From the NCBI RefSeq assembly GCF_028583425.1, contig NC_072797.1, positions 20,370,001 through 20,434,000 on the forward strand: DNA of 64,000 nucleotides, given 5' to 3'. The translations under genes and the position numbers were made by a program. The DNA comes from Eublepharis macularius. Its lineage: Eukaryota; Chordata; Lepidosauria; Squamata; Eublepharidae. The notes below the pieces were generated by a model. The model was not told the origin of the DNA and did no database searches. It saw only the letters and a list, made by a program, of their open reading frames with translations. This document shows, one piece after another, positions 5,418 through 62,157 of this stretch. Within the stretch, counting starts at the first letter, position 1, and each line of letters opens with the position of its first letter.

Positions 5418-6065
5418 AGGGATGCCAGACCCCCGGCAGGGGCAGGGGATCCCCTGCCCTTGCCCCCACACCCCGTCCCACTTACCTGGCCAGTGAGGGG
5501 GGTTCGCCCCTTCCGTGCATGCTCCCCTGCGGTGCTGCGTGCTCCCGTGAACACCAGCCACCCATTTTGACCTGGATCGGGGCTGCTGTGGAGCTCAGGA
5601 GCACTCCTGCACTCCACAATGGGTCTGTTTTGGCCCAAATCGGGCTTGTTTCAGGACCGTTTTGGTGCAGATCACACCAGTTTTGAGGTGCTGTAGAGCG
5701 AAGGAGTGCTCCTGCGCTCTGCAGCGGCCCAAAACAGGCCGGATTTGGTGCAGATCAGGCCCGTTTTGGGCCACTGCGGAACACAGGAGAGCTCCCACGC
5801 TTCTCAGTGGCTCAAAACAGGCCCGTTCTGTGCCAAAATGGTCCTGAAACAAGCCCAATTTGGGCCAAAATGGGCCCATTTGGGGCTGCTGTGGAGTGTA
5901 GGAGCGCTCCCGTGCTCTGCAGTGGCCCCAATTTGAGCCCCTGCAGATCATGGCTCCCAGGGGCCACGTGATGAAATCACTTCCCACACATGCACCCCCC
6001 ACCACAAGAGGTAAGTACAAGGAGCCAGTTCCCCCGCTGGGAGGTTAAGAGGTCCTGACAACCCT
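5418..6065. mobile_element. GC-rich MITE with internal degenerate repeats
   Basis: Ends are inverted: AGGGATGCCAGACC at the left and GGTCCTGACAACCCT at the right. The interior (about 5590-5940) is built of degenerate copies of units such as TTTTGGCCCAAATCGGGC and GGAGCGCTCCTGCGCTCT on both strands. The open frames across it result from this GC-rich repeat structure and do not look like genes. Similar interior units fill 24401-25543. Confidence 0.6.
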
Positions 6066-8616: not shown

Positions 8617-8867
8617 GAATATATCTTGAAGACTAAAATCTCTCATTTTAGATTAGGGACTGTAATTTTTTGCATGTAAATAAGTTTGTGTGTAGTAACA
8701 TGAGGATTTTGAATATTGGTTACAGTGTGTTAAAATGCAGGCCTCTGAGGAAAGAAGGAGGGGGACTGGATGGGTGAATGGATGGTGGCTGAACTCTAGG
8801 CATAGTAAACCGCACTTTTAGTCAGTGTGCTGCCCCTCTCTCCCCTCCTGTATTTGACCAGTTCGGA

Positions 8868-8992
8868 TCATGCATCTGACGAAGAGAACTTGATTCTCGA
8901 AAGCTTATGCTAATTGGTTAGTCTTAAAGGTGCTACTGGACTCTTTTTGATTTTGCTACTACAGACTAACACGGCTAACTCCTCTGGATCTA
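8868..8992 (+). repeat. Hammerhead-like repeat, subfamily A, fixed end intact
   Basis: Reads GACCAGTTCGGATCATGCAT, then a hammerhead-like core at 8876-8912 (CTGACGA, GAGAA/TTCTC stem, GAAA, GC-TTAT-GC, TA). It continues through GGTTAGTCTTAAAGGTGC and the fixed end CAGACTAACACGGCTAACTC. Core elements match the hammerhead consensus except for one extra A between core and stem II. No inverted 5' piece is seen in this copy. Confidence 0.75.
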
Positions 8993-9704: not shown

Positions 9705-9990
9705 CATCTTTTAGGTGGGTAGTCATGTTGGTCTGCACTGGAACACCTTAAGAGACCAACAGTGTTTTCAGAGTATAAACTTTCGTGAGTCAGAGCTTCC
9801 TTCTTCAGATACAGGTAGAAATGGAGATCCCTGAACCTTTATAACCCTTTATGTGCTCCTGACTGGGATATAAAGCCTCAGAGATCTCCATTCCTCTCTG
9901 TATCTGAAGAAGGGAGCTCTGACTCTGGAAAGTTTATACCCTGAAAATTCTGTTGGTCCCACAAGTGCCACTGGACTCAACTGCTAACCA
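9705..9990. repeat. Hammerhead-like repeat, subfamily B, both arms
   Basis: The left arm (about 9713-9820) starts AGGTGGGTAGTCATGTTGG and runs through AACTTTCGTGAGTCAGAGC to CTTCTTCAGATACAG. The right arm (about 9899-9990) is its inverse: TGTATCTGAAGAAGGGAGC, then GAAAGTTTATACCCTG. The arms are separated by about 75 bp. The structure is partly palindromic, with the fixed end on the left. Confidence 0.65.
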
Positions 9991-11867: not shown

Positions 11868-14800
11868 GTAAAGCAGAAAGATGCCTAGTTTTGTGTGTAG
11901 TAGGTTGCATCTGCAGAATTCCGCAGTGGTTAGTTGGGGCTGGTTCCTGGAGGTCATACATCCTGGATTATGCTCAGTGACTTCAAAACTCAAATAGTGC
12001 CAAAATTGTGGGGTGGGGTGGAGGTGGGGGGGGGGGGGAGGAAGAGTTCATTGCACAAAAAAATAATTACAAGGCCAACAGTGCAATCCTAAGCAAAGGT
12101 AGTCCTTCTAAGCCCAGTGAACTTACAAAGGTGTAAATCTATTTAGGACTGCACTGTTAACTTTGTAACCAGTAGAAGTTGTGAGAATTTGCTGATAGAT
12201 TTGCTTGCTGTGCATAATATTTCCCTTGCTAGTTGTAGAATAGTGGAAAGATTTATGTATGTAATTCTACCTCTCGACCATTGGAAATGCTGCTCAGCTC
12301 TTTGGCTTCTGCACCAAGCATTGCTGAAGTCTGTCTTATTGTAGAATATTTATCACATTTGAGCACTTGCACTTTTGTATGAATTAAAAATATAAAAATT
12401 TAAAAAATATATTAAATATATAAATATGACCTTCAAGGTTTGCAATTTGTTTGAGAGGAGTCTGTCTTTTGTCTGAAGGTCCATAAGCTTGTTTTAAAAA
12501 TAAATGAAATGTGGGCTTCTCTGGGTGCTGAATTTTGTGTGTATTTTCTGTACTCAAAGGAGTTAGCCGTGTTAGTCTGTAGTAGCAAAAATAGAAAAGA
12601 GTCCAGTAGCACCTTTAAGACTAACCAACTTTACTGTAGCATAAGCTTTCGAGAATCACAGTTCTCTTCTTCAGATGTTGAAGAAGAGAACTGTGATTCT
12701 TGAAAGCTTATGCTACAGTAAAGTTGGTTAGTCTTAAAGGTGCTACTGGACTCTTTTCTATTTCTGTACTCAAGTGGCACGTTTCTCAAATGCACTCTTT
12801 TGGCTTTGCTGCCTCAAAAACGGATGTATGAGTTGCTCTGCCTGTAGAGCAAGATCTAATCTGTCATGGAAGGAAATGGGTTGCTCTGAGCCAAAATTTA
12901 CTGGAGGCCACATTATGCTTGAGTGCACCATACAATTTGCATATTGACTTTTTTTAGAACGTGGCAGAGGCGGCACTCTAGAAGTTTTGATATATTGTTC
13001 ACTGTTCAATTTTCTTAATCCCCAAAGTGAGAGGGTGAAAAGGCTGCCTTTTGAAAATCCTGGCCTTTGAGCAAAAGTTGACCTCTGAGAAGAATTCATT
13101 TGCTTCCAAAGTTCCATTTGTTTGTTGGTTGGTCTCCAGTTGCAATATGAAACATGGTACAGCTGGGTGCTGGAATCTTTTAAAGAAATAGTTTCTTAGA
13201 GATGCTCCAAGGTGCCTCTGGGAGGAAACAAACGTGACCAATGCATTTAAGGTGCTGAGACAGAATACGAAACTCTGGAACTGCTCAAGAGAGACTCTTT
13301 TGGCAAGAGAAGGAAGAGAATAAGTAATGAAAGTTATAGGACGCCCCAGTTACCTCCATGGTTAATTCTGTTGAAATAGACAGATGCAGCGTATCGTTGT
13401 AGTTCTATGAGTGGGCTTAAATCAGAGCATCAGCCGTTCTTTCTTCATACATTTAAACAATATAAAGGAAGCACATGCTATATTTTAGCTTTTTAATTTT
13501 AATATCTACAAGTAAAATTCCAGTAAAAGTAATTTCCACCCTTGTTTGGATGTTACATTTAAACCATACTTGATTTGTCTTTTTCCTAATCAAATATTTC
13601 AGTTCCAGTATTTGTTGCTATTGGAATTGAAAAGTAACATGAGGTACTTTTAAAATGCGTTCTCTCCGTAATTGAAAAGAAATATGCTAAATAAAATCAT
13701 GTTCTATTTTGGGTATTGGGAAGCATTCTGAGGGGTTAAGGAGCAGGTGATTCACAAAACTCGGTCCTTGTCTTAAGAACTTGAGTCAAGTGAACTTATG
13801 CGGAAGTTTGCTTGGGGTGAAAAGGTCAGGGGATTGCAAAGTAGGCCACATGTGATGAAGCTGCTCAAACTTACATTTACCTTTCCATCTCCCATCTTGC
13901 TTTTGCCTGTTCTGTGATGGCATAGCAGATGTAGGATGATTTGCAAATTGGCTGGAACGATTCCATAACCACTGTGTTGGATACTGAGACCTCTGTGGAT
14001 CCATTGCAAAACCCACAGTCTGGCTGCTGGACAGTGCAATCCTATGCAGAATGCCTCCTGTTACTCTGCATAGCATTGCACTGTCATTGAGCTCAAAGGT
14101 AGTTCACATCTGGATAACTGCCATTTGTGCAGGCAGATAGCTGCACGATCCATCACAGGTCATACACCAGATGTTAGAGCCTCCGTTCTGTCTGATTCAT
14201 TAGACCCAGCATGTGCATTCAGCTACATGTTATCAAACAAAGTATGAAAAACCCATGTCAAGCCTCACAGTAATATAACAGTTCACACAGAATTTGAATT
14301 TGGGTTTGAATTTATTAAACTTGTGATTACATACTAAGCCTTGTATTACTGTGTGAATTGTTATATTACTGTGAGGCTTGACATATTGATTGTAATATAC
14401 ATTATTGGTGTTAGTAGTCTGACGTGGGTTTTTGCTGTTTTTCTTGTGCCATATACCACGTTTCTCTCTTTTTTGATCAAGCAAAGTATGTGCATGCGTG
14501 AACTGACCTAAGCACGTGAAACGGTCTTATACTGAATTGGTCTGTCAAGGTCAGTATAGTCGACTCTTATTGGAGGTAGCTCTCCAGGGTCTCAGGCAGT
14601 AGAAGGGCATTCCCCTTACCTGCTACCTGACCTTTTTAACTGGAGGTGCTGGAGATTGAACCTGGGACGTTCTGCATGCCAAGCAGTTACATACCACTGA
14701 GTATGGCCCCACAAAGAATTGCAATCGCATGACAAAAGCGGATACTGAGAGACCTTTGAACATACGGCCTTTGTTGGCCTGTTGCTGGTTCATGGTTTCA

Positions 14801-24400: not shown

Positions 24401-25543
24401 CAGGGCTTTTTTTCTGGGGAAAACAGCTGTGGGAACTCTCACCCAGGGCAACTCCTGGGAGGAGGTGGTGTGCCTCTTAATACATGTATGCGCGCACAGC
24501 ATGCATGCACTCCTGGGACTGCATGATGTCACTTCCAGGAAGTGACGTCATCATGCAGGCATGGCCGCCCCGGGAGTGCTCCTGTGCTCCATGGGGGATC
24601 CGATTCGGCCCAGAACAAGCTGCTGCATCACGGGGGGAGCACTCCCCCGCCTGGAAGTGGCCGCATCTGGGCCATTTCGGGCCCAAATTGGGCTAAAACG
24701 GGCCAGAAATGGCCCGGATTGGCCTGGAACGGGCTGCTGCCACATGGAGACCATTCCCTGCCGGGCAGTGGCCAAATCCTGGCCATTTTGGGGCCTGATC
24801 CTGGCCATATTGGGCCTGAAATAGGCCAAAAATGGCCAGGATTGGGCAGCTACTGGGGGAGGTAGTGTTCCCCCACCCGACACAGGCCCAATCCCGGCCG
24901 TTTGGAGCCCGATCTTAGCCATTTTGGTCCCAAATGGGGCCAAAATTGGCCAAAGGGGCTCTAAGTAGCCAAAACTGGGCCACTGCCCTCAGCAGAGACC
25001 TGATCTTGGCTGGTTCGGGCCTGGTCCTGGCTATTTCAGGCCAAATCTTGGCCATTTTGGGCCCAAAATTGGGCCCAAAATGGCCAAAAGGGGCCCAAAA
25101 TGACCAGGATCGGGCTGTTGCTGGGTGGGTGAGTGTTCCCCCGCTAGGCAGGGACCCAATGCTGGCCCTTTCGGGCCTGATCCTGGCCATTTGGGGCCTG
25201 AATTGGGCCAGGATCGGGCCCGAATCAGGCCACTGCCGAGTGGCGGTGGGTTCCCCCACCCAGCAGCGACCCGATCCTGGCCATTTTGGGCCCTAAATGG
25301 GCCCCAAATGGCCAGAACAGCCCTGAAATGGCCTGGATTGGGGGCCAAACCAGCCTGGAACGGGCCACTGCCGAGTGGGGAAACCCTCCCCCTCCTGACA
25401 CCAGCCCGATCCTGGCTGTTTTGGCCCTGATCCAGGCCTTTTGGGACCCGAAATGGGCCCAAAATGGCCGAAATGGCCTGGAACGGGCCACAGCCAGGCA
25501 AGGGAACACTGTTTCGGGTCGTTCCGGCTCAAAAAAACCCATG
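24401..25543. mobile_element. GC-rich hAT-type element filled with GGGCCAAAATGGCC repeats
   Basis: Left end CAGGGCTTTTTTTCTGGGG (same TIR as the element at 35147). Right end CTCAAAAAAACCCATG. Flanking near-duplication GGTTTGCT (24393-24400) and GGTTTTCT (25544-25551). From about 24650 the interior is a degenerate array of self-complementary units around GGGCCAAAATGGCC and GGATCGGGCC. These leave long open frames on every strand, none protein-like. A perfect CRE palindrome TGACGTCA occurs at 24543-24550. Confidence 0.65.
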
Positions 25544-30445: not shown

Positions 30446-30562
30446 GGCGGGTAGTGGTCTTGGTCTGCAGTAGAACAGCAAGATTTGAGTCCTGCAGCAC
30501 CTTAGAAACCAACAAGATTTTAAGAGTATAAACTTTCAAGAGGCAGAGTTCCCTTCTTCAGA
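30446..30562 (-). repeat. Hammerhead-like repeat, subfamily B, one arm
   Basis: GGCGGGTAGTGGTCTTGG, CAGCACCTTAGAAACCAACA, AGTATAAACTTTCAAGAGG and CCCTTCTTCAGACAC mark the fixed-end arm in minus orientation. Confidence 0.6.
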
Positions 30563-30734
30563 CACAAATCTGTGATTTGAGTTGTATCCAGTTTGATCTT
30601 TAAAATCCCAAATTTGGAGGCAATACTGTGAAATTATTAATGGAGATAATCCGCAGGATAGTAAATATTGCAGTACTTCAAGATGGGAGTGCAGAAAAAC
30701 TCATGCTGTAGCAAAAGGTGCAAATTCAACTTCC

Positions 30735-36549: not shown

Positions 36550-36738
36550 TACTGAATCAGGCCATTGATATATCAAGATCAGTATTGCCTACTCTGATGG
36601 GCAGCAGCAAACCTGGGTGTTGAGCAAAGATCTTTCCTATCACCTTCTACCAGCTCCTTTGAATGGAGATGCCGGGGACTGAATGTGAAACCTTCTGCCT
36701 GTAATGCAGATGCTCTGCCCACTGAGCCACAGTTCCTC
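36550..36738 (-). repeat. tRNA-derived SINE, minus strand
   Basis: Minus-strand head GTGGCTCAGTGGGCAGAGC. The box B region is weakened (CACATTCAGTCCCCGGCA). The tail reads CTGATTCAGTAGTTACAG. Same family as 14511 and 61972. Confidence 0.75.
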
Positions 36739-41439: not shown

Positions 41440-41814
41440 ATCATGACAACTTTCAGTTAGAGGTCTTCTGGCAATAACAGCAGTGATAGGAAATGGGGGG
41501 GGGGGAGTCCTTCCTCTGCTAGTGACAGTTGGTGGTCTTCAATGTCTTATTGAGATTAATCCCACCATTTGAATCAAGTGACAGTTTAACTGTTCCTACC
41601 TGTTCAAGACACCACTTTATCCCCTTCCTGAGGATATCCAAAGGCAAGCAAAACATCTGGCAGGTCCTAACAGTGGTGGAGAATGTGGTCAAAGGTGTCA
41701 CCATTCACAGTGCTTCAAAGAGTATGCACATAAATACCTAGTATTCATTGCCCATGAAGTCTGATCTTTTTTAAAAAAAATCTTTTCTCAGATCAAATAC
41801 ATGTGCAAAATTAG

Positions 41815-42532
41815 TGTCGCGCACAGGGCTGGGCTCAGCAGGCAGGAGGCCCACTGGTACTGCAGGGCAGAACACAACAGGCAGGAAGTCAGTAGTCCAG
41901 GAGTCAGGTCAGGTGTCAGAGCCAATATGTCAGTCAGAGAGAGGAGCAGGCAGAAGAGTAGTCAGAAAGCGGGCCGGGGTCAAAATCCAATCCAACAGCA
42001 GGGCAGGGCACAAGGCAGGGCAAGAGCGTCCAGGCGTAGAGCTCTGGTAGCAGGGAGTGGCGAGCTGAGTTGCTTCCACGCTTGGTTTCCTCGGCGTCTT
42101 CCTTTTATGCTGTCCTAATGAGGAACAGCTGTTGCCTCTCTCTCTAACAATCCAGTTCGGTGTTGCGCCTGTAAACGGGCGCTCCTTCGCCTATCCAACA
42201 GAGCTGACTTATCTCTATGCTTCCTCCTTTCAGCTGGCCCCAGGTGCTCAGGTTTCGCTTTTGCCCTGTGGGAGTCTTTGTCTCTTACAGCCTCTGTGGA
42301 GGTTTCTGGCTGTTCCTCATCCCTGACAGTCTCTGCAGAAGCTCCAGGCTGTTCTTGCTGAATTCCTCCTGGAGCAGCAGCAGTGGTTTCTGACTGCTCT
42401 TCCTCTCCAATAGCTTCTGCAGGGGCTTCTGGCTCTAGAGAAGACCCTTCTGGCCCTTCCTGCTCATCTTCTGAGGAGGACTCTGAAGCAATAGGTAAGG
42501 TGGCCAGCCGGGGCTGGGGCTGACTCATGACA
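41815..42532 (-). repeat. 3' LTR
   Basis: 718 bp, plus strand begins TGTCGCGCAC and ends CTCATGACA. It matches the other LTR over its length as far as read. On the minus strand a TATA-like CATAAAAGG lies at about 42101-42109. The 3' end of the pol frame runs into this LTR. Confidence 0.95.
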
Positions 42533-46936: not shown

Positions 46937-46973
46937 GCTGCCAGTAGCTGCTGAGTTGTGGGTGGAAGCAACG

Positions 46974-47691
46974 TGTCGCGCACAGGGCTGGGCTCAGCAG
47001 GCAGGAGGCCCACTGGTACTGCAGGGCAGAACACAACAGGCAGGAAGTCAGTAGTCCAGGAGTCAGGTCAGGTGTCAGAGCCAATATGTCAGTCAGAGAG
47101 AGGAGCAGGCAGAAGAGTAGTCAGAAAGCGGGCCGGGGTCAAAATCCAATCCAACAGCAGGGCAGGGCACAAGGCAGGGCAAGAGCGTCCAGGCGTAGAG
47201 CTCTGGTAGCAGGGAGTGGCGAGCTGAGTTGCTTCCACGCTTGGTTTCCTCGGCGTCTTCCTTTTATGCTGTCCTAATGAGGAACAGCTGTTGCCTCTCT
47301 CTCTAACAATCCAGTTCGGTGTTGCGCCTGTAAACGGGCGCTCCTTCGCCTATCCAACAGAGCTGACTTATCTCTATGCTTCCTCCTTTCAGCTGGCCCC
47401 AGGTGCTCAGGTTTCGCTTTTGCCCTGTGGGAGTCTTTGTCTCTTACAGCCTCTGTGGAGGTTTCTGGCTGTTCCTCATCCCTGACAGTCTCTGCAGAAG
47501 CTCCAGGCTGTTCTTGCTGAATTCCTCCTGGAGCAGCAGCAGTGGTTTCTGACTGCTCTTCCTCTCCAATAGCTTCTGCAGGGGCTTCTGGCTCTAGAGA
47601 AGACCCTTCTGGCCCTTCCTGCTCATCTTCTGAGGAGGACTCTGAAGCAATAGGTAAGGTGGCCAGCCGGGGCTGGGGCTGACTCATGACA
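46974..47691 (-). repeat. 5' LTR
   Basis: 718 bp, identical in length and apparently in sequence to the 3' LTR. The gag frame starts 37 bp inside it. I did not recognise a tRNA primer site between LTR and gag; self-priming is known in the sushi/Tf1 group, but this was not tested here. Confidence 0.95.
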
Positions 47692-49034: not shown

Positions 49035-49259
49035 TATAGTATTTTTAGAGGAGTTAGCCGTGTTAGTCTGTAGTAGCAAAATCAAAAAGAGTCCAGTAGC
49101 ACCTTTAAGACTAACCAATTTTATTGCAGCATAAGCTTTCGAGAATCAAGTTCTCTTCGTCAGATGCATGATACAAACTGGTCAAATACAGAAGAGGAGG
49201 AGGGAGAGGGGAGATCTAACGAAGAGAACTTGATTCTCGAAAGCTTATAGTATTTTTAG
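49035..49259 (-). repeat. Hammerhead-like repeat, subfamily A, complete copy with 14-bp target duplication
   Basis: Element about 49049-49245. Fixed end AGGAGTTAGCCGTGTTAG at the left, then the arm through TAAGCTTTCGAGAATCAAG to TTCGTCAGATGCATGATAC. The other end is an inverted partial copy stopping at TTCTCGAAAGCT. Flanks are TATAGTATTTTTAG on both sides (49035-49048 and 49246-49259). In element orientation the 3' end is fixed and the 5' end is an inverted, truncated piece, as after twin priming or Penelope-type insertion. Confidence 0.85.
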
Positions 49260-50719: not shown

Positions 50720-52085
50720 GCAGCCCCCTGTCCGTGGTTGTTCAGGGTGCTTTACCTGCTGCATAGGTGATCGAGGAAGCTGCCCTTCCCTCACCAACCA
50801 CCCAAGAGCCAGAGGAAATAGCCTTCCTCATCTTTTTGGTGCTTTAAAAATAGCACGCCAAGCCATGCACGCCCTATAGGGCTTCCTGAACTCTCCCAAG
50901 ATTACTTCCTGTTGGGAGATCTCAGCCAGGAATGTGGTTGCCCTGGTAACAGGCAACCAGAAATGGTTCCTAAACTCTCACATGAAGAAGAACAACAACT
51001 TATGAGAGTTCAGGAACTGGTGTGTGTAGCTTGCCAATCTGCTTTTAAAATGGCCTCTAGGACAAGGAAGGCATGATGTGGGAGGCAGTTAGATAGGAGA
51101 GCATTTAGCCGGTTGGTGAGGTGGGAGATTGCCAGACCCCCAAAATCTACTGCTTAAGGTACTTCATTAGAGTGGCAACCCCATCTATAGTTGCAAAGTG
51201 AAAATGGGAAATCCTGCTTAGAATTGGTGCCTGGACCCTGAGGCAGCAATGTCCTGGGAAGATAAGATGCAAACCAGCAAGATACCCAGATGCGAAGATG
51301 CTCAGATGCACTTCGCAAGATCCATCGTTGTCAGGGCAATATTTAGTTAATCTTATTATTGTGCTCTGCTTTGGGAACCGTTTTGGTTGAAAAGCTGTAT
51401 GCAAATATTGTAAATAATTAACCAACAGAGAAATGGTTTATTCACCAGCCATTCATTCTAATGTCGTTGTCATTGTTCTGCCTGGGTGTTCACCGTCACC
51501 AGCGTATCCCTTGTTCTCTTGACATTGAGGAGTGGGGGGAAGAAAGAAATACACCCTGCATGCCTCAGTTTATGACAGCTAGGTTCCTTTGCCATGGCTC
51601 ATATATTGCAGATGTACTCTGTCAATGGGTGCAAAGTTACAGCCAAGCTACAGATGTGACACTGGAGTTCTGCGACTGCGATTCCAGACATGTAATCTGA
51701 CCCTTAAAAGCAGCTGGGAGTAGGAGAGTATGGATTAGAGCCACAGTACAAGGAAAGTACAAGGTTATCACATTATCACAGGTAACAGATTTCCTTTACA
51801 GAGGCGTGGTCTGGGGGAGCCCAGAGACGCCTGGTGTGGGCTTTGTTTGTCAATTATCTCAGCCTGAGTGCCTGTGGGCTTTCGGGGACCACAGTTCTCT
51901 TTGTCAGATGCAGCTGGCAGGGAGAGCTGTGGTTATCGAGGGCTTATACTACATAGGAATTGTATACCTTCACTGCGGCAAACTGACTCCACACCAAAAG
52001 GAGATGTTTACATTTACAAGCAAAGGAATGTTTTGATTGCCTTCACACTAATTGCATTCTGTCTTCTTGTGATATATGTCCTGTT
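50720..52085. other. Intergenic, nothing firmly recognised
   Basis: Includes a diverged hammerhead-like-repeat fragment near 51885-51950 (GGGCTTTCGGGGACC, TTTGTCAGATGCAG). Otherwise no feature. Confidence 0.35.
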
Positions 52086-52228
52086 CTTTCCCCTCCCCTC
52101 CTCTTCTGTATTTGACCAGTTCGGATCAGGCATCTGATGAAGAGAACTTGATTCTCGAAAGCTTATGCTACAATAAAATAAAATTGGTTAGTCTTAAAGG
52201 TGCTACTGGACTCTTTTTGATTTTAGTA
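52086..52228 (+). repeat. Hammerhead-like repeat, subfamily A, best-preserved core
   Basis: GACCAGTTCGGATCAGGCAT, then the core at 52134-52170: CTGATGA, one extra A, GAGAA-CTTGA-TTCTC stem-loop, GAAA, GC-TTAT-GC stem III, TA. It then reads GGTTAGTCTTAAAGGTGCTA but lacks the CACGGCTAACTCCT end. Confidence 0.75.
52134..52170 (+). ncRNA. Candidate hammerhead ribozyme core
   Basis: Seen: the invariant CUGAUGA box, a 5-bp stem II with a 5-nt loop, GAAA, then A-U, G-C and C-G pairs closing a UUAU loop (stem III), and an A at the cleavage position. Differences from the consensus: one unpaired A before stem II, and no obvious stem I partner between GGCAU before the core and CAAUA after it. It may be a decayed or context-dependent ribozyme; activity is unproven. 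Confidence 0.45.
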
Positions 52229-52560
52229 CAAGGAAAGAGTAGAGTTAACTCTTCTTTACATGTCATTTCTCTAACAATAAAGACACTTCTTCCCTGTTTT
52301 GTGATAAGCTCTAGTATGGGGGGAAAGACAGGCACAATATGGCTTCCTGTCTTCTTCCTTACTGGCAACCTGTCTTTTTCCCTACCAGGGCTTAAAGCAA
52401 CCTACAAGGTGATTTTTAATCAGGGAAAATAACCCATAGAAGAGTTAAACCTCCACCCCCCAGTGAAAGAGTCCTGATCCACATCAGCACTCCTCCCGTG
52501 GCTGCTTTTCAGGAACAAATTACACATTTGACATTCTACTTCTGGAGTTCTAGACACTCA

Positions 52561-61971: not shown

Positions 61972-62157
61972 ATACACGAAACTGCCTTATACTGAGACAG
62001 ATCTGGTTAGTATTGCCCACTTTGACAGGCAAGGGCCCTCCAGAGTTTCTAGCAGAGGATTTTCACCTCACCTATAATCTGATCTGGAGATGCTGGGGAC
62101 CGAACCTGGGACCTTCTGCATACAAAGCAGATGCTCTGCCACTGAGCCAGAGCCCCA
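61972..62157 (-). repeat. tRNA-derived SINE, minus strand, best copy of its family
   Basis: The minus strand starts GGGCTCTGGCTCAGTGGC with box A (GGCAGAGCATCTGC) and box B GGTCCCAGGTTCGGTCCCC. The tail CTCAGTATAAGGCAGTTTCG is at the other end. The anticodon arm does not fold as a functional tRNA, and the body continues past tRNA length. Confidence 0.85.

Follow-up and report, generated by a model that had tools for sequence, protein, structure and literature searches.

Minimal hammerhead motifs of Penelope-like elements (PLEs) were reportedly described by Cervera & De la Pena in 2014 and by Lunse, Weinberg & Breaker in 2017. In the available parts of PMC6155905, PMC7761336 and PMC6466107, these motifs are presented as type I cores without stem III that reside in the pseudo-LTRs (pLTRs) of the elements, are supposed to form dimers, and are found in thousands of dispersed copies, some of them in tandem. 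The excerpt from PMC7761336 adds that helix III is missing from many PLE motifs, which are found in tandem and possibly work as dimers, and calls their role a mystery. Double hammerheads are known from a newt satellite and from ASBVd according to sections of PMC6155905 and PMC6466107.

The PLE Poseidon PAc of Anolis carolinensis, as portrayed in the extracts of PMC11167929, resembles the element discussed here in encoding an RT and a GIY-YIG endonuclease. It belongs to the Penelope/Poseidon clade, whereas the element discussed here is Neptune-like and has a Cys-rich linker. The RT of Poseidon PAc starts in an AC-rich region and its hammerhead cuts only with the element protein; protein-assisted cleavage has been demonstrated for Poseidon PAc, whereas cleavage of the motif described here is predicted. 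The Penelope families of Adineta vaga share with our element the pLTR-ORF-pLTR layout, head-to-head inverted pLTRs and junction palindromes in the portion of PMC3846280 that deals with them; the word hammerhead is absent from the text.

In this work, the commonest repeat family of a 64-kb stretch of DNA (the window, C8:20370001-20434000 of a 2.24-Gb host genome) is examined. Its motif is a real minimal PLE hammerhead, and the combination with a PLE is already known from other animals; the very short arrays that it forms are the surprising part. Like the minimal PLE hammerheads in the sources available in part, it has a type I core without stem III, a pLTR location and thousands of copies. Unlike those motifs as described there, it sits in a Neptune-like element, has two alternative stem I sequences, has one additional A ahead of stem II in 21 of 22 distinct local copies, and forms very short arrays.

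The motif and its fold

A first-pass annotation of the window proposed a hammerhead-like core in its commonest repeat. Commonest is a fair description when older relatives are counted, as an iterated profile returned 26 window matches at E <= 1e-3, some of which are opposite strands of one palindrome. Letters read in place at 52134 (+), 8876 (+) and 49163 (-) give CTGATGA or CTGACGA, then A, GAGAA-CTTGA-TTCTC, GAAA and GCTTATGC. The copy at 12674 (-) has the core CTGAAGA and the loop CTGTGA in an otherwise identical layout. The shared core, paired stem and GAAA claimed for these four copies are therefore present, as is the extra base before stem II, and the loop of the 12.6-kb copy does differ while its stem stays paired. 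When the copies at 12678 (+) and 49214 (+) are included, stem II is paired in six of six window copies.

Direct reading, a profile search and folding place the motif of the 52-kb copy at 52130..52168 (+). It is composed of the stem I 5' strand GCAT (52130-52133), CTGATGA (52134-52140), the extra A (52141), stem II GAGAA/TTCTC, GAA, AGCTT, and the stem I 3' strand ATGC (52165-52168), with cleavage predicted at 52164^52165 (+). Minimal hammerheads also lie at 8872..8910 (+; predicted cleavage 8906^8907) and 49129..49167 (-; predicted cleavage 49133^49132). The copy with the CTGTGA loop (12639..12678, -; predicted cleavage 12643^12642) has a reduced stem I (ACAT/ATGC) because of its position at a head-to-head junction. 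Its inverted partner (12674..12713, starting at 12678, +) has a TTGAAGA core and has lost the 5' strand of stem I. The element tails around these two copies form a head-to-head inverted pair at 12555..12793, with arms of 88 nt that are 98% complementary and 5 nt between them, and this pair represents PLE-type inverted pLTRs. An inverted fragment close to the 49-kb copy (49214..49252, +) has the core CTAACGA and an intact stem II and is without a tail. Partly decayed copies of an older subfamily are found at 9900..9939 (+) and 9773..9812 (-), both with the stem I GTAT...ATAC, and at 30526..30565 (-), with GTGT...ATAC.

Throughout the host genome, the core pattern TCTGANGAAGN{10,18}GAAAGCTYATRY has 20,655 + 20,321 = 40,976 matches, and the reversed-pattern control has 0. 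A CUGANGA and GAAA core is present with U-H before the predicted cut. The seventh core position (N7) is free, being C in 45, T in 35 and A in 20 of the first 100 matches listed, where the search pattern allowed variation, and C, T and A in 13, 5 and 4 of the 22 local copies, in which the remaining CTGANGA bases each agree in at least 20 copies. All five pairs of stem II are formed in 96 of the first 100 of the 40,976 matches, a set in which the pattern fixes the first G and which includes several copies of duplicated segments that are not independent. Among the first 100 matches listed, the main arms are GAGAA/TTCTC (53), GTGAG with CTCAT or CTCAC (11) and GGAAG/CTTTT (7), followed by GAGAG with CTCTC, TTCTC, TTCTT and similar partners and by GAAAG/CTTTC (2). 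Changes are two-sided at three of the five pairs, as seen in the arms GAGAA/TTCTC, GAGAG/CTCTC, GTGAG/CTCAC and GAAAG/CTTTC. Pairing reaches 97.3% in 30 distinct motif strings vs 89.2% in row shuffles (a value matched by 0 of 10,000), 94.7% vs 87.3% in 15 distinct arm pairs (23 of 10,000) and 91.8% vs 86.2% in 22 distinct local copies (1 of 5,000). Against these shuffles of distinct strings and local copies, the stem II substitutions are compensatory and not random with respect to pairing, an outcome in favour of the first-pass reading.

Stem I was thought to be missing in the first-pass annotation. It is in fact formed by GCAT...ATGC, which pairs around the core and flanks CTGANGA and AGCTT. 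With all other core positions kept constant, and with 0 matches for the reversed-pattern control in each case, the genome holds 29,470 copies with GCAT/ATGC, 2,623 with GTAT/ATAC, 661 with GTAT/ATGC (a U-G wobble) and 496 with GCAT/ATAC (a C-A mismatch). In this whole-genome two-by-two table the paired classes exceed the mixed ones with an odds ratio of ~236. The table records one or a few switches in source elements followed by decay in the copies; the numbers are strong and the independent events few, because the subfamilies share ancestry. Among the 22 distinct local copies, stem I pairing by itself does not clearly exceed that of shuffles, 431 of 5,000 of which pair as well as the real copies. 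This local test is weak for stem I because nearly all of these copies belong to one class, most of the older GTAT/ATAC copies having been dropped when gaps in a flanking column were filtered.

The same bases bear on a monomeric hammerhead with AGC(UUAU)GCU as stem III, no stem I, and a cut at the base after GCU, as the first-pass annotation had drawn it. The AGC/GCT pairing is possible in the GCAT/ATGC subfamily, and an energy model draws this hairpin in two settings: a 52-nt context, where it favours the alternative fold, and the 12.6-kb copy, where the hairpin takes the place of stem I. However, every ATAC copy (2,623 + 496) breaks its C-G pair, and its pairing rate of 90.9% across the 22 distinct local copies does not exceed that of column shuffles (91.0%; 5,000 of 5,000 as high). 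This stem III overlaps the ATGC bases of the co-varying stem I, is not conserved between subfamilies, and leaves the 5' strand of stem I without a partner. We regard the monomer with this stem III as very unlikely, and the predicted cut moves to GCUU^AUGC. With AGCUU between GAA and AUGC, the monomer is without a stem III, and the motif is by its letters a minimal hammerhead that is predicted to self-cleave.

The reading that we consider likely is a PLE pLTR hammerhead that probably acts as a dimer and would cut at GCUU^AUGC, with a putative role in the life cycle of the element. Each copy would fold with stem I GCAU:AUGC, the core CUGANGA, the extra A, stem II GAGAA:UUCUC, GAA and AGCUU. Two copies would pair through the self-complementary AGCU as stem III and would most likely exchange their stem I strands to give a double hammerhead, which would then cut at GCUU^AUGC. 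The element protein may be needed, by analogy with the report on the Anolis Poseidon element. Modelled folding energies do not argue for self-cleavage here. Four complete GCAT/ATGC copies have z values of -0.56 to -1.41, which are not unusual, and the monomer model draws stem I in them; two older copies, folded in stretches that end short of the stem I 3' strand, show no advantage over shuffles. Co-folding of two motifs yields long duplexes instead of the double hammerhead. In one natural and three composed tandem pairs, the double hammerhead has -10 to -12 kcal/mol, compared with minima of -19 to -30.

A Neptune-like host element

The repeat is the pLTR and tail of a Neptune-like PLE that encodes an RT, a Cys-rich linker and a GIY-YIG endonuclease. 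RVT_1 (3.1e-12) and GIY-YIG (1.8e-4) are matched in one open frame of 963 codons. The GIY-YIG match scores 22.2 bits in the full ORF, just below the Pfam cut-off of 22.6, and 23.9 bits in a 369-aa piece from another copy. Three loci (L041, L042 and L043) have the complete order pLTR-ORF-pLTR with a 963-codon open frame and one intact motif per pLTR, located at the pLTR-ORF border of each pLTR; the open frame continues across the motif, which leaves the position of the true start codon uncertain. The two motifs of each locus are 3,179, 2,924 and 3,179 nt apart, respectively, and with tandem motifs ~3 kb apart in pLTR-ORF-pLTR, cleavage of the transcript would release unit-length RNA. Between the RT and the endonuclease, a Cys-rich stretch, CNRPRCQLC...C...CQQC, can be seen by eye before ALYIGQT, and a Cys-rich domain at this place marks Neptune-like PLEs in the passages available from PMC3846280. 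The placement as Neptune-like draws on this stretch and that source. Pseudo-LTRs and tandem and inverted copies, all features of PLEs, are found as well. The PLE link suggested earlier is thus borne out by the RT and GIY-YIG frame and by the pLTR-ORF-pLTR loci. Taken as a whole, the first-pass annotation is partly supported: an abundant retroelement does carry a ribozyme motif, and the core, stem II and the PLE link were right, while the stem III and cut assignment and the missing stem I were wrong.

In the window, pLTR ends with tails are present at 52091..52256 (+), where the tail begins GGTTAGTCTTAAAGG and is degraded at its 3' end, at 8833..8986 (+), which ends ACAGACTAACACGGCTAACTCCTCTG with a few bases absent after GCTA, and at 49046..49199 (-), where the tail is full. 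One 73-nt tail occurs unchanged 4,071 times in the genome. A protein search of the genome gave 33,582 first-look candidates; 111 of them were scored, and none of the 111 has stops. From the unchanged tails and the stop-free scored candidates we infer that the element was recently active. The tail may be the counterpart of the AC-rich region in which the RT of the Anolis element starts. Its arms GTTAGTCT and AGACTAAC can pair, for example at window 8914-8986, and older copies carry GTTGGTCT/AGACCAAC. The subfamilies differ from A-U to G-C at one pair of this helix; covariation of the arms is unsupported (84.8% paired vs a shuffled 82.9%, with 612 of 5,000 shuffles reaching the real value).

A decayed second unit in the same orientation lies ~200-235 nt upstream of the motif in 12 of 20 copies that were fetched with their surroundings. 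In several of the 20, the end of the coding region precedes the decayed unit, and this region encodes GIY-YIG preceded by RT. In the window, this upstream unit (unit 1) is found in the same 3' region at 51875..51966 as a palindromic pair of decayed hammerhead-like units, one reading CTGGCAG..GAGGGCTTATAC in the sense and the other CTGACAA..GAAAGCCCACAG in the antisense direction, with the core and stem I broken. The unit 1 palindrome, with one decayed unit per strand, is centred on GATGCATC or GATGCAGC at window 51875-51966 and in L010, L012, L013, L041 and L043.

Abundance, insertion ends and function

The possibility that an abundant repeat resembles a hammerhead by chance would agree with the outcome of the Rfam search, in which the hammerhead models gave no match, either at gathering or at E <= 10, on the window, on a 66-nt stretch or on a tandem array. 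This check lends no support to the first-pass reading; the miss would be expected of a motif without stem III. Chance is made exceedingly improbable by the background. The core pattern that has 40,976 matches in the host genome has 21 in prokaryotic contigs (257 Gb by the description of the collection), with stem I in 2, stem II in 1 and both stems in 0 of the 21; these matches look like chance and served as the background. Both stems are complete in 52 of 64 motif copies from loci of the host genome, a set that includes 20 copies fetched for exact match, the array L044 and at least one overlap between loci (L029 within L022). Chance is also disfavoured by the genome-wide stem I table and by the fact that each of the two PLE pLTRs carries the motif, a location for which such motifs have already been published (PMC6155905, PMC7761336 and PMC11167929, each in the part available). 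A scan of IMG/VR for relatives gave 0 matches and a PDB sequence search nothing relevant. A 138-nt query has at least 40 exact matches in the genome, 40 of 678 candidates having been scored. A DNA search with the 87-nt tail, by a method that passes over very common words, gave no matches.

The Rfam search also returned matches to miRNA models below gathering, which look like long hairpins and were set aside. Matches to a tRNA model above gathering at window 36674-36736 and 62085-62156 (-) fall in a three-copy repeat family (D15) and are perhaps tRNA-derived SINEs. Elsewhere in the window, a 300-nt direct repeat has copies at 41814-42113 and 46973-47272 that are 100% identical and ~5.2 kb apart, and GGCC-rich diverged tandem repeats occur at 24645-25510 and 5579-5932.

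If cleaved RNA were the usual template for insertion, copies should start at AUGC. By alignment, 0 of 35 local copies (40-128 bits, leaving aside the 20 copies fetched for exact match and matches below 40 bits) start exactly at the corrected cut, and one of them (L028 4904) seems to start a few bases upstream of it. Copies ending at the cut, which the first-pass annotation looked to as a sign of cleavage, thus gain no support from this check. There are 286 close head-to-head junctions genome-wide with 0-30 nt between the arms (e.g., G000:C1:16902702-16902727). Among the first 50 of these, 10 are centred exactly on the AAGCTT palindrome of the motif, 2 coincide exactly with the cut, and by exact match 6 of their 100 arms stop at the cut. 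The peak at AAGCTT suggests second-strand priming or repair aided by the palindrome. Insertion probably does not rely mainly on cleavage products as templates, or the 5' ends are reworked during insertion.

These ends are consistent with a motif kept for recognition by the protein or RT, or as a promoter or translation-start structure, with the likeness to a hammerhead being a by-product or a dead relic. According to the extracts of PMC11167929, mutation of the Anolis PLE hammerhead left in vitro insertion unchanged, and no RNA-seq reads began or ended at its cut site. The open frame that runs through the motif and energy models that do not favour the active fold point in the same direction. 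Against this stands the constancy of the catalytic positions, and not of the helices alone, while N7 varies. Stem I changes in a paired fashion, and unit 1, which has decayed in the same elements, demonstrates that the sequence can be lost. A function of this other kind appears unlikely, although less so than the monomer with its own stem III, and the dimeric pLTR hammerhead is preferred.

Short tandem arrays and their significance

Copies of the motif also occur in many short tandem arrays. The end of one motif is followed by the start of the next within 30 nt at 1,141 + 798 = 1,939 junctions genome-wide (control 0). The first 100 of these fall into 52 arrays of at least two units when joined within 2 kb, with several types of spacer, although duplicated segments may inflate such counts. 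Common start-to-start spacings at these 100 junctions are 47, 50/51 and 52 bp, along with multiples and some longer spacings, e.g., 90. In L044 531-1052 (G000:C1:10495530-10496051), ten successive 52-bp units are found, several with an imperfect stem II. Among the matches listed on C1, the last 5 Mb of the contig contain 13 of 21 arrays and the first 5 Mb contain 0. Of 86 single cores from both mixed stem I classes, only 7 fall within the last 5 Mb (Fisher p 5e-7 for the comparison with the arrays); the end of this contig is assumed to be the chromosome end. The 31 arrays among the matches listed on C2 are in its first 7.2 Mb and carry no information on clustering.

Among the open-licence titles listed for hammerhead ribozyme with minisatellite or subtelomeric, none reports such arrays. 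A tandem arrangement by itself has a precedent in the axolotl PLEs mentioned in PMC7229834, which carry repeated copies of the minimal hammerhead. Metazoan retrozymes and newt satellite 2 contain tandem type I hammerheads that are dimeric when stem III is weak, and their units of ~170-400 bp (PMC7229834 and PMC6155905, in the portions available) differ from the 47-52-bp units of the host genome. A retrozyme is a small non-autonomous tandem element that has canonical hammerheads and gives circular RNA, and the arrays resemble one in layout only. A speculative reading, which we consider improbable, is that the PLE hammerhead has escaped from its element into minisatellites with a 47-52-bp unit that is almost pure ribozyme, which if transcribed would yield self-cut RNAs of ~50 nt and could have a role at chromosome ends. 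Transcribed arrays would place hammerheads side by side, which is the arrangement needed for dimeric cleavage, and ~50-nt array RNAs would be smaller than the retrozymes in those parts of the published accounts. If active, the arrays would to our knowledge contain the smallest self-cleaving satellite units.

The in vivo activity and role of PLE hammerheads are called a mystery in the section of the review PMC7761336 that treats them. The PLE that forms the commonest repeat family of the window carries a hammerhead, and its intact cores number in the tens of thousands, alongside many open frames. Its natural stem I variants (paired, wobble and mismatched), together with the decayed unit 1, offer ready-made controls, and the family is well suited, as a natural system, to the question of the purpose of PLE hammerheads.
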